A stretch of 54,210 nt of DNA from Syntrophorhabdaceae bacterium (GTDB lineage Bacteria > Desulfobacterota > Deferrimicrobia > Deferrimicrobiales > Deferrimicrobiaceae). Position 1 is the first letter of the stretch. Each line of letters opens with the position of its first letter. The notes under the pieces were generated by a model. The model made no database searches and was not told the DNA's origin. It worked only from the letters and a program-made list of their open reading frames with translations. The stretch covers positions 1 through 54,210 of the forward strand of contig WRHP01000006.1 of assembly GCA_009783195.1 (NCBI GenBank), read 5' to 3'. A program made the position numbers and the translations under genes. This document shows positions 8,546-50,117 of the stretch, piece after piece.

Positions 8546-9346
8546 TTAGTCGCGAGCTGTTTCACTCTGTTCTTTGATGTTGAACCGGATCGAAATGAGC
8601 CTGGTTGACGCTATCGGCATGCCGAGTATTTTGGCCGGAGTGAAAGATGCTTTTTTAAGCGCATCGAGCGCTGCGTTGTCTAAATGCCTGTATCCGCTGG
8701 AACGGACGATCCTGGTTCCGGCCGGTTTGCCGTCAGCCGCCACTTCTGTTTCAAGTACGACGGTTCCCTCATGGCCGTGGAGCCTCGAATGCCGGGGATA
8801 TGTCGGCTTGGGCAGATTGGCGATGGCGGCGGGGCTTGAAGTTCCCGCTGCTCCGTCTCCGGTGCCGCCGCCGATTCCGCCTCCGTTTCCTCCGGGATTT
8901 TCGTGTAGCTCGTAGGCGCTGTGCTCAACACTGTTTTCTCCATAGCCGTCCCGCGTCCATATTTCTTGGTAGCCGGTTTCCTCCCGGCCGGACTCTTGCC
9001 GCGCAGTTTTCTCGGTTAGCCCAGACTCCTTCGCTGGTTCCAGCCGGGCGGATTCCTGGTCTGGCCGCGGATCGGGTTCTGGCCTTACGGATTTGGGCTT
9101 CGGGCGCTCCGGGGGGTGTGCTGTCACGCGGTGCCTCCCCGGAGCCCCTGAAGTCATGGGTTTAACGTGATTTCCCGAAGCTTCGGACCCCCCGGCGTTT
9201 CCCGGCGATTCGATGCTCATGAAAATGACCGATGCCTGCCTGCCAAGGGCGGCTATTCCGGCGTTGGCCGACAAGATTCCCGACAAAACGGCGGCATGTA
9301 TGGCCACCGAAAAGACGAGCGGGTATCTGAGAGCGCGTGAATTCAT
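8546..9346 (-). CDS. TonB family energy transducer
   Basis: Pro/Glu-rich linker and C-terminal PRHSRLHGHEGTVVLETEVAADGKPAGTRIVRSSGYRHLDNAALDALKKASFTPA. Confidence 0.9.
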   Translation of the reverse strand: MNSRALRYPLVFSVAIHAAVLSGILSANAGIAALGRQASVIFMSIESPGNAGGSEASGNHVKPMTSGAPGRHRVTAHPPERPKPKSVRPEPDPRPDQESARLEPAKESGLTEKTARQESGREETGYQEIWTRDGYGENSVEHSAYELHENPGGNGGGIGGGTGDGAAGTSSPAAIANLPKPTYPRHSRLHGHEGTVVLETEVAADGKPAGTRIVRSSGYRHLDNAALDALKKASFTPAKILGMPIASTRLISIRFNIKEQSETARD

Positions 9347-11283
9347 CAGAACGAGAGCCGTATTCCTCCATAAATAGAAAACCTTTGAGTTCCGTATCCG
9401 AACACCTCTTCATAGTTTTTGTCGAAGAGATTTTTTATGCGGCCAAGGAGTGTGATGTTTTTCGTGATGCCGTAGGAAGCGGCCAGGTTGACAAGCGTGT
9501 AACTGTTCAGTTTTACCCGGCTGGACGGGTACGAGGAGTAATCAAAATCGTCGCGGTTGTCCATCCAGATGACTTCCAGGTCGACATTGCCTTTTGCGAG
9601 GAAACGGTAGTTTGTGCCAAACGCCACTTTGTTTCTGGGCCTTCGCAGCAGTCTTTCATCTGTGGTTTTATCTTTCGCGTCGGTGTAGGTGTACCCGGCC
9701 CGTAACGACAGATCTTCTGTCAGCTTGCCGTGCAGGGTTGCTTCGACGCCCTCGGACTTCGCTTTCCCCACGTTCACATATTTAGACGTTGCGCTGTCAA
9801 AATCGACCAGGTTTTTGAAGTTATTGCTGAAATAGGTTATGCCGAATGTCAGGCGCTCCTGGAGAAACGACTGTTCTATTCCGGCATCCCATCCCGCGCT
9901 TTTTTCGGGGGCCAGGTTTATGTCGCCATATGAGGAATAGAGCTGGTAGAGCGACGGCGCCTTGAATCCTGTCCCGTAGCTTCCCTTTATCCGGGTCGAG
10001 GTTTCACGGAACAGGTAAGAGGATGCCGCGCGGAAGGTGGATTTTGTCCCGAATCTGTTGTGGTCATCCACACGCGCTCCAAGGGTTGTGAACCAGGAGT
10101 CCCATAGCCGGATCTGGTCCTGGATATAGAAGCTGGTGGTCCGGGCGTACTGCTTTGCGAAGTCGTCGGAATAGGGGCCCCACATGCTTTCCGAATAATA
10201 CGTGGAGTTTGCCGTCTCCCTTTTCGTTTCAACTCCCAACGTAAGCGTGTTGGTTTCGTGGAGATAGAGGTTGTGCTGCCAGTCGAACTTGACGATCTGC
10301 CCGTCGTATGTGCTCCGGTCGAGATCGAAAGGATGGGCCGCGTCGGTATCGTTTCTGAATTTCTGGTTATGGTCGCTTAAAGAGAAGCCGAATTTCTGTT
10401 CCCATAGATCATTGAACAGGGAAAGCCGCGATTGCGCCCGCAGGAAAAGTTTTTTCGTCCTCCCCGTGCTGTTCGGGTCGTCGCCGCCCGCGCCTCCGAA
10501 GTTGTCGAGATCGAAAGCGCTGTTGATGTATCGCAGGACAAGATCCGCGTCGAAGTTCCTGGAGGGCGTTACTCCTACCCGCGTGGAGAGTGTTGTGCTT
10601 GCGTAGCCGTCTCTTTCCGTGTTTCCTCTTTTTTCATTGGCGGCGGAGAATCCGCTTGTATCCGTGCGGGAGATATCCAGGGAATAGTTGAAGATGCTCG
10701 CGCTTCCGCCAAGCCATGCGTGTTCGTTGAAAGTGCGATAAGATCCGCCCTCCGCCGACAGGAAGCCGGACAATTTTCCGGAGCCTTTTTTCGTGATGAT
10801 ATTGATGACGCCCCCCATGGCGTCTGAGCCGTAGAGGGTGCTTTGCGGCCCCTGGACGATCTCGATGCGCTCGATGTTGCCGGCGTCCATTTTGCCAAAA
10901 TCAAATCCTCGTGCCGTAGAAGAGGGGTCGTTCATCTCCACTCCGTCGATAAGGACAAGGGTGTGCTCCGATTTTGCCCCTCGCATGAACACGGAAGCGA
11001 CCTGGCCTTGACCTCCGGATTGCGCGACGTTTAGCGAAGGCACGCTACGCAGCACATCGGCAACGGTGGTCTTGCCCTGCTCCTGTATCTGTTCGGCTGT
11101 TATGACGGTGACGGAGCTTCCAACTTCGCGCCCAGGTGTTTCAAGCCGGGTTGCGGTTACCACGATTTCATCCATGCCTTGCTGTTGTCCGACCGGGTCT
11201 GTTTCTCCGGCGGCCGGAAAAGGCGGCGCGGCGAGCAAAAACGCCAATACAGTGACAATTGTGACAATTCCGGTTCTTTTCAA
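9346..11283 (-). CDS. TonB-dependent receptor, probably cobalamin (BtuB-like)
   Basis: TonB box EIVVTATRLETP, plug domain, 22-strand-like barrel ending RFSIYGGIRLSF; upstream cobalamin riboswitches. Confidence 0.92.
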   Translation of the reverse strand: MKRTGIVTIVTVLAFLLAAPPFPAAGETDPVGQQQGMDEIVVTATRLETPGREVGSSVTVITAEQIQEQGKTTVADVLRSVPSLNVAQSGGQGQVASVFMRGAKSEHTLVLIDGVEMNDPSSTARGFDFGKMDAGNIERIEIVQGPQSTLYGSDAMGGVINIITKKGSGKLSGFLSAEGGSYRTFNEHAWLGGSASIFNYSLDISRTDTSGFSAANEKRGNTERDGYASTTLSTRVGVTPSRNFDADLVLRYINSAFDLDNFGGAGGDDPNSTGRTKKLFLRAQSRLSLFNDLWEQKFGFSLSDHNQKFRNDTDAAHPFDLDRSTYDGQIVKFDWQHNLYLHETNTLTLGVETKRETANSTYYSESMWGPYSDDFAKQYARTTSFYIQDQIRLWDSWFTTLGARVDDHNRFGTKSTFRAASSYLFRETSTRIKGSYGTGFKAPSLYQLYSSYGDINLAPEKSAGWDAGIEQSFLQERLTFGITYFSNNFKNLVDFDSATSKYVNVGKAKSEGVEATLHGKLTEDLSLRAGYTYTDAKDKTTDERLLRRPRNKVAFGTNYRFLAKGNVDLEVIWMDNRDDFDYSSYPSSRVKLNSYTLVNLAASYGITKNITLLGRIKNLFDKNYEEVFGYGTQRFSIYGGIRLSF

Positions 11284-11324
11284 GTTTTTCTCCTTCTTCC
11301 CGCGAAGAATTGGTGGAGTTTATG

Positions 11325-11490
11325 CCGCCGGAACAGGTCTCCTGGCTCTCGTTCGTCCTACTTGCCGACAGCCTTCCCGCCCGTTTTTTAGGGCAGTGGC
11401 TTGCCTTGCGGCGTTCGTCACGATTACAGTCGCGGGGCGGCGGAGGTTTTGCACCTCCTTCCCTTTGATCCTGCGGCATCCTCTTTATAC
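11325..11490 (-). promoter_or_regulatory. Cobalamin riboswitch (proximal)
   Basis: Minus strand: gggaaggaggtgcaaaacctccgccgccccgcgactgtaa...gccactgccc...gggaaggctgtcggcaagtaggacgaacgagagccaggagacctg (B12 box). Confidence 0.93.
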
Positions 11491-11551
11491 TGTCCGATTT
11501 CTTGTCCTGGCCAGAGTAGCGCGCGGCCGCGCATCACCTCACTTTCTTCGC

Positions 11552-11591
11552 AAAATAAAAAATCCCCGGGCGTATCACCTGACGCCCGAGG
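11552..11591 (-). terminator. Intrinsic terminator between the two riboswitches
   Basis: Minus strand cctcgggcgt-caggtgat-acgcccgggg followed by atttttta. Confidence 0.85.
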
Positions 11592-11654
11592 ATGCCGTTT
11601 TTCATCCTTTTTAAGCGCCGCCTCCAGTCCGCGTGGGGCGAAGCTGTAACTTTG

Positions 11655-11850
11655 TCGTTTCCAAGAGCAGGTCTTCCGGCTTCCGGATCATCCTACCTGC
11701 CGCGCCTTCCCGTCCGTCTTTTAAGGGCAGTGGCGTTTCTTGCGGCATTCGTCCCCGGTTACGGCGGCGGGACCGCGACGGATTCGCACCGTCTTCCCTT
11801 TTATGGCCATACGGCCACTCTTCAAGCGGATTAATACCACAAGCTTTAGG
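11655..11850 (-). promoter_or_regulatory. Cobalamin riboswitch (distal)
   Basis: Minus strand: gggaagacggtgcgaatccgtcgcggtcccgccgccgtaa...gccactgccc...gggaaggcgcggcaggtaggatgatccggaagccggaagacctgctc (B12 box). Confidence 0.93.
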
Positions 11851-33015: not shown

Positions 33016-33107
33016 TGGCGGAGAGGCAGGGATTTGAACCCTGGAGGCACTTTAGGCACCTACGCGATTTCCAGTCGCGTTCCTTCGGCCAGCTCGGACA
33101 CCTCTCC
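33016..33107 (-). tRNA. tRNA-Ser(GGA)
   Basis: Minus: GGAGAGG...cgactGGAaatcg...long variable arm...GGTTCAAATCC...CCTCTCCG-CCA. Confidence 0.95.
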
Positions 33108-33225
33108 ACATTTCAACCGACAGCAACGTACTATATTGCGCCGTGATCCGCTTGGCTACAACAACAATGTCTTTTGGCCGTCCGCGCAATACGAAAGTTT
33201 GAATCCGCGGTCCCCGCGTGCGGGG

Positions 33226-33322
<97 letters not shown>

Positions 33323-33351
33323 GGTTTTTCCGCCGATCCGCGAATACCTCA

Positions 33352-33439
33352 TGGCGGAGGGAGTAGGATTTGAACCTACGGAAGCTTGCGCTTCAGCGGT
33401 TTTCAAGACCGCCGCCTTAAGCCGCTCGGCCATCCCTCC
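33352..33439 (-). tRNA. tRNA-Ser(TGA)
   Basis: Minus: GGAGGGA...cggtctTGAaaaccg...GGTTCAAATCC...TCCCTCCG-CCA. Confidence 0.95.
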
Positions 33440-47555: not shown

Positions 47556-48500
47556 TTACTCGTTTGATCGTGCCGTCCGCATTGCCGCCGTCAGGATGAA
47601 GCAGGCCGAGGATGCCAGCACTATAGTCGCGCCGGTGGCCGTGTCCAAGTAGTAAGAGGCAATTAGCCCGCAAACACCTGAAAAAAGAGAGATTCCTATC
47701 GACAAAAGAAATGCGGGCGCGGCTGCGCGCGCAATATTTCTGGCCGCGGCGGCGGGAATGATAAGCAGCGCGGTGACAAGAAGTATTCCCACGGTCCGGA
47801 TCGCCGCCGTCACTACAAGCGATGTTATAAGGGCAAAAGACACCTCGACAGCTTTTACCCGGACTCCTTTCGAGCGGGCGAAGCCTTCATGGATTCCGAG
47901 AAGCAGCAGACGGTTGTACGTGACGATCAGGAAAAAGCCTACAAGAAGCAGCAAAAACAAAAGCCAGACGATCTCCGCGTCGGAAATTGCCAAAGGGTCC
48001 CCGTACAGAAACATTTGCAGGTTCCGGGTCAATCCTTTCGCGCGGCTGATAATGGCGATTCCAAGGGCGATAGCGGTGGAGAAAAAAACGCCGATGACGG
48101 TGTCGGCGGAAAGATCGGTGCGCCCCTTGACCAATACGATGCCGACGGCTACAAGAGCGCCAAAGACCACCATGGTCCAGGTGGGGGAGACGCCAAGCAG
48201 AATACCCAGAGCCACGCCGGTGAACGCGGAATGGCCGATGGCGTCCGAGAAAAACGCCATGCGGAACTGGACCAGCGGCACGCCGATAGCCGCTGTTGCC
48301 GGGGCGACAAGCAGCATTGCCAGCAGCGCCCGCTTCATGAATTCGGGCTCAAGAAATGAAAATGGCAAAAGCGCATCTATCAGGAAGAAGATGGCGTTGA
48401 AAATTGTTTCCAGAGCTTTACCCTTTTGCCGCGCGAGGCTCGCGCGGAGATTGGTCTTTGCCGGCGAAATAGTGGAGAAATAGAGGGATGTCGTCGCCAT
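47556..48500 (-). CDS. znuB: Zinc/manganese ABC transporter permease
   Basis: ABC-3 family: MAFFSDAIGHSAFTGVALGILLG; GILLVTALLIIPAAAARNIAR; start probably near 48413. Confidence 0.9.
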   Translation of the reverse strand: MATTSLYFSTISPAKTNLRASLARQKGKALETIFNAIFFLIDALLPFSFLEPEFMKRALLAMLLVAPATAAIGVPLVQFRMAFFSDAIGHSAFTGVALGILLGVSPTWTMVVFGALVAVGIVLVKGRTDLSADTVIGVFFSTAIALGIAIISRAKGLTRNLQMFLYGDPLAISDAEIVWLLFLLLLVGFFLIVTYNRLLLLGIHEGFARSKGVRVKAVEVSFALITSLVVTAAIRTVGILLVTALLIIPAAAARNIARAAAPAFLLSIGISLFSGVCGLIASYYLDTATGATIVLASSACFILTAAMRTARSNE

Positions 48501-49212
48501 AGATCTCCGCGAGGTTTTCGGCTGTCAACACCTCTTTGGCCATACCCTGGCGGATGATTCGGCGGTTTAGGCAGATCACCTCGTCGGCTTGCCGCGCCAC
48601 AAGTGACAAGTCGTGGCTGACGAGGAGAAGGCTGAAACGGGCGTCGTTGTGGATCTGCGACAGGAACCGGCTGAACTGCTCTCCGCCCGCAAGGTCAACG
48701 CCTGAAACCGGCTCGTCAAGCAGGAGGATATCGGGGGAATCATGCAGGATCAGCGCGAAAAGAACCCTTTGCAACTCTCCGCCGGAGAGCCTTCCCAACC
48801 GCCGGTCGGCCAGATGAGCCACTTCCGCGCGCTCAAGGCTTTCCAGCGCCATGCGGCGCACCGCTCTGGATATGCCGAGGAACACGGGGCGCTTTTGCGC
48901 CGATAGAGCGAAAAAATCAAGCACTGTGAGCGGAGTTTCGCGGTCAAACGCGAAGTGCTGAGGAATGTAGCCGATACGCGGCGATCCTCCTCCGTGTTCT
49001 TTGTGCCGGCAGAACCGGATTTCGCCCGTATATGGCACTTGGCCCAAGATTGCATGGAGCAGCATCGTTTTCCCCGCGCCGTTTGGTCCGATAAGAGCCG
49101 TTACCCTGCCGCATCGGATGTCCGCGTTGATTCCGGACAGGACCTCGATGCCTCCCTTCCGCGCGCTAAGGTTGCGGATTTCGAGAGTATGCCGGCAGAT
49201 TTCCGGATTCAT
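48418..49212 (-). CDS. znuC: Zinc ABC transporter ATP-binding protein
   Basis: Walker A ALIGPNGAGKTMLL; signature RLSGGELQRVLFA; ILLLDEPVSGVD. Confidence 0.93.
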   Translation of the reverse strand: MNPEICRHTLEIRNLSARKGGIEVLSGINADIRCGRVTALIGPNGAGKTMLLHAILGQVPYTGEIRFCRHKEHGGGSPRIGYIPQHFAFDRETPLTVLDFFALSAQKRPVFLGISRAVRRMALESLERAEVAHLADRRLGRLSGGELQRVLFALILHDSPDILLLDEPVSGVDLAGGEQFSRFLSQIHNDARFSLLLVSHDLSLVARQADEVICLNRRIIRQGMAKEVLTAENLAEIYGDDIPLFLHYFAGKDQSPREPRAAKG

Positions 49213-50117
49213 GGATAGGAAAGCGACTCCGTCAGCGTTTTCAGGTTAAGCAACATTGCGTCTTCATAAGATGTCGGCGCCGCCTGGCCGGTGACGACCG
49301 GATCAAGCGGAAAAACGGGAATTCCAGCTTCGCGCGCGATTATGTCGATGATCCGCTTTGTATTCTGAGGCTCCGCAAAGATGGCGGGAACTTTCTTTTC
49401 CCGGATTGTTTGCAAGAGCGCCCGGATCTCCCCGGCGGAAGGCTCCTGCCCCGGCACGTCTTCGATTCGCCCCGCTATCGTCAGCCCGTATTCTTGCGCC
49501 AGGTAATCAAACGCGTTGTGGGAGGTGACAATGTTGCGGTTGCGGAATCTGGCGGACGCCTCCCGGTATTTCCGGTCAAGCGATTCGAGCCGCTTTATGT
49601 AAGCGTTCGCGTTGGCGTGTAGTTTCCCTCTGTTTTCAGGCGAGGCGTCTCCAAGCGCCTTTTCTATTGCTCGCACTTGTATGATCGCGTTTTTGGGACT
49701 GACCCATGTGTGCGGATTTTTGTCTTCGTGCGCGTGTGCCTTATGATTTTCTTTTTCCGTTGTAAGCAGCGGAGAGACGGAAGAGGTTGTTTCGATTACG
49801 AGAAGCTGCGGGTTTGCTTTGCGCGCGACGGTGTCGAGGAAATTTTCCATACCCATTCCGTTAGCGATCAAGATGTCCGCTCCGGCGATCTTTCGCATAT
49901 CCGACGCGGTCAGAGCGTAATCGTGCGGGCACCCAAGCGACGAAGGCAGCATCATGTCCACGGAGATGCCGGTTATACCGGCGGTTACATTCATGGTGAA
50001 AACATGCATGGGCAGGAAGGTGGTCAGGACGCGCAAAGGGGCATCAGCCGCGGCGGCGGCCGGGGCCAGCGTCAGGATGGCGGCGGCCAGAAGCGGAATA
50101 CATCGCTTCGTTCTCAT
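49209..50117 (-). CDS. znuA: Zinc ABC transporter substrate-binding protein
   Basis: SSLGCPHDYALTASDMRKIAGADILIANGMGMENF; His-rich ENHKAHAHEDKNPHTWVSPKNAI. Confidence 0.93.
   Translation of the reverse strand: MRTKRCIPLLAAAILTLAPAAAAADAPLRVLTTFLPMHVFTMNVTAGITGISVDMMLPSSLGCPHDYALTASDMRKIAGADILIANGMGMENFLDTVARKANPQLLVIETTSSVSPLLTTEKENHKAHAHEDKNPHTWVSPKNAIIQVRAIEKALGDASPENRGKLHANANAYIKRLESLDRKYREASARFRNRNIVTSHNAFDYLAQEYGLTIAGRIEDVPGQEPSAGEIRALLQTIREKKVPAIFAEPQNTKRIIDIIAREAGIPVFPLDPVVTGQAAPTSYEDAMLLNLKTLTESLSYP

Follow-up and report, generated by a model that had tools for sequence, protein, structure and literature searches.

A putative two-step tandem of cobalamin riboswitches upstream of a BtuB-like receptor gene

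Two cobalamin riboswitches in one leader

A gene for a vitamin B12 receptor in a Syntrophorhabdaceae bacterium is preceded by what appear to be two riboswitches for the same ligand. This raises the questions of whether both are complete, whether they act separately, and what a second switch could add to the first. The locus lies within a 54,210-nt stretch of DNA (the window), and the leader and the genes it precedes are on the minus strand. The initial annotation proposed that the distal riboswitch ends transcription and that the proximal one then controls the same receptor, probably at the level of translation.

That annotation placed two complete B12 aptamers in series on the minus strand, and this is borne out by a cmscan of the whole window against Rfam, in which two intervals, not one, scored as a riboswitch. 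Both are full-length matches to the Cobalamin family (RF00174; gathering score 31.5) that span model positions 1–189. The distal aptamer is found at 11649–11836 (107.7 bits, E 4.3e-26) and the proximal aptamer at 11313–11489 (89.9 bits, E 5.5e-21); the coordinates first assigned were correct to within about 15 nt. No other regulatory RNA was found by cmscan in the window, the remaining Rfam matches being three tRNAs, and there was no further RF00174 match in the genome assembly (1.74 Mb, 88% complete).

The gene downstream does start at 11283 as annotated, with a TTG codon, and encodes a TonB-dependent receptor of 645 aa (9346–11283; PF07715 and PF00593). The family that matches it best is TIGR01779, in agreement with its description as BtuB-like, but the score of 365.1 bits is under the equivalog cut-off of 599.7, so the receptor is filed only as BtuB-like. 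A tonB-family gene (8546–9346, minus strand; TIGR01352, 64 bits; PF03544) overlaps the receptor's stop codon, and the two genes presumably form one operon. On the upstream side are dksA, galT and a gene like that of glycogen synthase (glgA by name only), all in the opposite orientation, which places the start of the leader in a divergent intergenic region. What is found is a tandem: two aptamers in a single intergenic leader, each with an expression platform of its own and with a terminator after the first.

In cobalamin riboswitches the kissing contact is made by the C-rich loop, L5 (PMC2258182), which is GGUCCC in the distal aptamer (11774–11769) and CGCCCC in the proximal aptamer (11439–11434). 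By inspection, each L5 is complementary to the L13 loop of its own unit, GUCC to GGAC in the distal unit and CCC to GGG in the proximal unit. Covariation of L5 with L13 among related loci is partial – where L5 is GGACCC, most L13 loops retain GGA – and this was counted against the two-step reading. Minimum free energies of the full leaders were uninformative (z of -1.4 and -1.6). Another candidate contact, between the T-loop hairpin UGCGAAU and UUCGC in the linker, was dropped because it is the C-rich loop that takes part in the kissing contact and because the pairing is not kept in relatives.

A terminator after the distal aptamer

The linker that follows the distal aptamer is predicted to have two mutually exclusive folds. 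In the first, the P13 hairpin (CGCCCCA paired with UGGAGGCG, extended outwards to 11645–11614) presents the L13 loop CGCGGAC (11633–11627), and the terminator is intact. The L13 motif is present in nearly all members of the distal platform family. In the second, GGCGCUU (11619–11613), most of which is within the extended P13, pairs with GGGCGUC (11587–11581) of the 5' arm of the terminator, around an inner hairpin of AGGAUG (11608–11603) and CAUCCU (11594–11589). This predicted antiterminator, at 11581–11619 on the minus strand, overlaps both P13 and the terminator's 5' arm.

An intrinsic terminator between the aptamers had been part of the original description, and comparison with homologues supports it. 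It is located at 11557–11593 (minus strand), with the arms AUCCUCGGGCGU and ACGCCCGGGGAU forming a hairpin (11593–11562) of 12 pairs, 8 of them G-C, with a loop of 8, followed by the U-tract, TTTTTATTTT. This was the strongest of 10 terminator-like sites between 8000 and 14000, most of the other nine being at chance level (shuffled sequences had a mean of 7.8). Across eight loci the terminator has compensatory changes: five pairs are altered on both sides, 99% of cells are paired, and none of 500 shuffles was as high.

At single loci, the window included, the stability of the antiterminator was no better than that of shuffled linkers. Over 33 loci, the loci's own combinations of linker and arm were more stable than permuted ones, with 23 of 5000 permutations as low; these sequences are related and not independent, so the result is support and not proof. 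The inner hairpin varies among related loci yet still pairs, as GGAUG/CAUCC, GGAUA/UAUCC, GACUUU/AAAGUC or GCUUC/GAAGC. Eight loci were used to build a covariance model, R1, for the distal platform, and of 395 genomes in the phylum 106 contain a match to it. Of the matched loci, 23 were newly scanned with Rfam, and at 21 of these the R1 site coincides with an RF00174 aptamer.

The two riboswitches would be separate units, with the distal one yielding a short RNA only, if a promoter lay in the gap that separates the terminator from the proximal aptamer. The ~70 nt of this gap in the window speak for this, as does the scope of the promoter search, which covered sigma-70-like sites only. However, no such site and no gene was found between the window's aptamers, and three related leaders (L032, L046, L074) have no room for a separate promoter, as their second aptamer begins at or within the terminator. 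That the two are independent units is considered very unlikely. An open frame of 36 codons (11534–11424, minus strand), preceded by GAGG, starts downstream of the terminator, ahead of the proximal aptamer, and ends within the latter at the conserved CUGUAA; it is probably a chance occurrence.

A putative translational platform after the proximal aptamer

The scan for terminators between 8000 and 14000 found none downstream of the proximal aptamer. The flank of this aptamer fits a translational type found directly before the start codon at 25 loci, including the window, with a consensus of about CCUUUCGAGGGAAAGGAG. In this type the L13 loop (mostly CGNGG) is immediately 5' of the Shine-Dalgarno sequence and start codon, and the Shine-Dalgarno sequence is within P13 or next to it. 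The leader of the window ends in CUCC-ACCAA-UUCUUC-GCGG-GAAGAA-GGAG-AAAAAC-UUG. Within the predicted platform (11290–11318, minus strand; same arrangement in 24 other loci), CUCC (11318–11315) pairs with the Shine-Dalgarno GGAG (11293–11290) around the hairpin UUCUUC-GCGG-GAAGAA, and the proximal L13, CGCGGGA, is at 11304–11298. The window's Shine-Dalgarno hairpin is predicted to fold without help from the aptamer, and the predicted folds give no route by which the Shine-Dalgarno sequence is freed at low B12; this too was counted against the two-step reading.

The pair might also be pseudo-cooperative, with both units acting on transcription, the second via Rho or coupled mRNA decay, and with a steeper, less leaky response as the only gain. 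Reported AdoCbl doublets are filed in this way (PMC9481103), and cobalamin riboswitches of Gram-negative bacteria that have no terminator can alter transcription, as in E. coli btuB (PMC12121620). However, the proximal aptamer has no terminator after it, and its P13 holds the Shine-Dalgarno sequence, as in the 24 other loci, so that action on transcription by both units is considered unlikely.

Proposed two-step control

The preferred reading is that the leader probably combines two complete cobalamin OFF riboswitches that act separately, as a tandem of the bi-mechanism kind, in control of a btuB-tonB uptake operon. The order of the platforms, the first transcriptional and the second translational, is that of a bi-mechanism tandem at the level of sequence. 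Distal termination followed by proximal translational control, as the initial annotation had it, is still the best reading and is backed by related loci.

By homology, binding of B12 to the distal aptamer would stabilise the L5-L13 kissing loop and P13. The stabilised P13 would withhold its 3' strand from the antiterminator, the terminator at 11593–11557 would form, and transcription would stop. Without B12, the 3' strand of P13 would pair with the 5' arm of the terminator and the polymerase would read through. In the proximal unit, the second L5-L13 contact and the P13 hairpin would hold the Shine-Dalgarno sequence when B12 is bound, blocking translation of btuB. The proximal gate would act on those transcripts that escape the distal gate, and could still work on finished mRNA. 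With two gates the leak would multiply, and if their affinities were equal the 90–10% range would shrink from 81-fold to about 40-fold (by arithmetic from (1+x)^-2).

Tandem leaders elsewhere in the phylum

Tandems of this kind had been called uncommon. This is true in general, with fewer than 1% of AdoCbl leaders containing several aptamers (PMC2258182), but within this phylum the layout is seen repeatedly. In a search of the first 59 relatives, at least two genomes (that of the window and G027) have two matches within 500 nt on the same strand. In total, at least 12 leaders have two aptamers: the window, L032 (Geobacter sp. UBA5730, Thermodesulfobacteriota), L055, L062, L058, L074, L046 and L122–L126, the last five found via R1 matches. 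Second aptamers in related leaders were counted only above the RF00174 gathering score, and, given strict filters and fragmented contigs, the numbers of tandems are minimum values.

At least eight leaders (the window, L032, L055, L074, L046, L123, L125 and L126) have the composite layout, in which the first aptamer is followed by a terminator and the second by a Shine-Dalgarno platform with no further terminator. This layout spans families f1, f33, f51, f4 and f44 as well as Geobacteraceae. Each module also occurs alone upstream of btuB, the terminator in L047 and L048 and the translational platform in, for example, L034, L037 and L042, so the composite can be described as the sum of two modules. 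L062 retains the hairpin but lacks the U-tract, and a search of the tandem leader of L058 found no terminator; both were counted against the two-step reading.

By eye, the distal and proximal aptamers of locus L125 (3239–2741, minus strand) have an identical stretch of ~50 nt in common, suggestive of gene conversion within the pair. Two further tandems with a terminator between the riboswitches, L122 (G191:C46, 3353–2832) and L124 (G296:C13, 1163–1656), precede a gene for methylmalonyl-CoA mutase, identified by Pfam in L122 and by a similar N-terminal sequence in L124. Methylmalonyl-CoA mutase is a B12-dependent enzyme. In both loci the second platform differs, and downstream of the second aptamer of L124 there is a further terminator-like hairpin. 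It would be odd for B12 to repress a B12-dependent enzyme; the second unit of these leaders could be an ON switch.

In L056, two cobalamin riboswitches (4429–3440, minus strand) flank a gene for a CbiZ-like protein (160 aa) and are followed by btuB. This locus was dropped as a true tandem on account of the CbiZ gene, and may represent a step between the tandem arrangement and the split one.

Ancestry of the tandem leader

In the BtuB tree, 13 receptors from the family of the window fall into a single clade (100/100). The window's receptor itself is outside this clade and groups with those of L055, L062, L032, L056 and L065 (87/98). Within this group, L055, L062 and L032 have tandem leaders, L056 has its two riboswitches and L065 has a single one. 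The nearest named btuB relative belongs to Geobacteraceae, a relationship that does not establish the identity of the host. The simplest reading is that btuB and its tandem leader may have been acquired by horizontal transfer.

Aptamers resemble their counterparts at other loci more than their partners. Identity is 84% for distal aptamers (to those of L055 and L062) and 81% between proximal aptamers, versus 77% between the distal and proximal aptamers of the window (the rows L055_d and L042_A of the identity matrix contain extra upstream sequence). A recent duplication in place is rejected by this matrix, and the like-with-like identity indicates that the pair is not a fresh duplication and that the tandem is older than these loci.

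There is some evidence for a different history, in which genes between two riboswitches were lost and only one of the window's units still works, the other being a relic. Members of family f1 keep the order riboswitch-btuFCD-riboswitch-btuB near dksA-galT, with the riboswitches ~3 kb apart around btuFCD; a CbiZ gene is present between the riboswitches of L056; and the U-tract has been lost in L062. However, both aptamers of the window score highly and their L5 and L13 loops still match, both the distal and the proximal unit show conservation from locus to locus, and the aptamers of L125 share their long identical stretch as if homogenised. The window's receptor is also foreign to its family, which makes it unlikely that the arrangement arose when btuFCD was lost from the operon native to that family. 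That only one unit works and the other is a relic is considered very unlikely.

Both units are, on the preferred reading, functional. A broader proposal, offered tentatively and at slightly less than even chances, is that homotypic cobalamin bi-mechanism tandems are a recurrent cassette of the phylum, in which a terminator-type and a Shine-Dalgarno-type unit with differently matched kissing loops are maintained in series and carried between families with btuB. If true, this cassette would be a low-leak gate on uptake that can be closed after the mRNA is made.

Comparison with reported riboswitches

Tandem AdoCbl pairs are already known in outline. Sherlock et al. 2022 give 26 AdoCbl doublets as pseudo-cooperative, and name bi-mechanism tandems for SAM, though not all tandems are sorted there by mechanism (PMC9481103). 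A 2025 survey found tandem riboswitches to be marginally enriched in Thermodesulfobacteriota (PMC12452182). Like the window, the AdoCbl doublets have two complete cobalamin riboswitches for the same ligand per leader, with their own expression platforms; they are unsorted by mechanism, while the second platform of the window is of the translational type. A similar arrangement is found in the SAM-II/SAM-V tandems and SAM-II doublets (PMC9481103), in which, as predicted for the window, a terminator follows the first unit, the second controls the ribosome-binding site, and both respond to one ligand. The ligand is different, however, and SAM-II/SAM-V uses two riboswitch classes while the aptamers of the window are of one class.

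The individual units also have counterparts. In Priestia megaterium metE, as proposed for the distal unit, a kissing loop stabilises P13 and the 3' side of P13 is the alternative antiterminator, and the logic of P13, antiterminator and terminator was shown by mutation (PMC10653944); the partner of that cobalamin unit is a SAM riboswitch, not a second cobalamin unit. The btuB gene of E. coli (PMC2258182) also has a cobalamin riboswitch on a B12 receptor gene with translational control, but with a single aptamer, whereas in the window a terminator-type unit stands upstream.

No report of a bi-mechanism AdoCbl pair was found in the open literature, which was the scope of the search. Judged from its sequence, a cobalamin bi-mechanism tandem would add to a kind already known, and would extend bi-mechanism tandems, so far described for SAM in the open literature, to the widespread cobalamin class. 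Related natural examples exist, and single-unit leaders of the same gene offer natural controls, so the question of why a leader should have two switches for one ligand becomes directly testable with composite and single-unit btuB leaders. Otherwise the locus is a well-made but ordinary variation of known parts.

Genomic context

The genome of the window encodes btuFCD on another contig (G000:C66, L084), after a polyprenyl-synthetase-like gene. Unlike the riboswitch-headed btuFCD of family members, this locus has no riboswitch match. MetH and the class II ribonucleotide reductase NrdJ are encoded. In the 88%-complete genome there was no CobB/CobQ match above the cut-off, and neither a CobA- or PduO-type adenosyltransferase nor a second TonB-dependent receptor was found. 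The host looks like a B12 importer, a lifestyle that makes tight control of uptake plausible.

Elsewhere in the window, three tRNA-Ser genes (anticodons GGA, GCT and TGA) are found within 424 bp (33016–33439, minus strand). An operon at 47556–50117 (minus strand) encodes a ZnuA-type binding protein, an ABC ATPase and an ABC-3 permease, the last of which is the source of a weak FecCD match; this operon is probably for zinc or manganese uptake.
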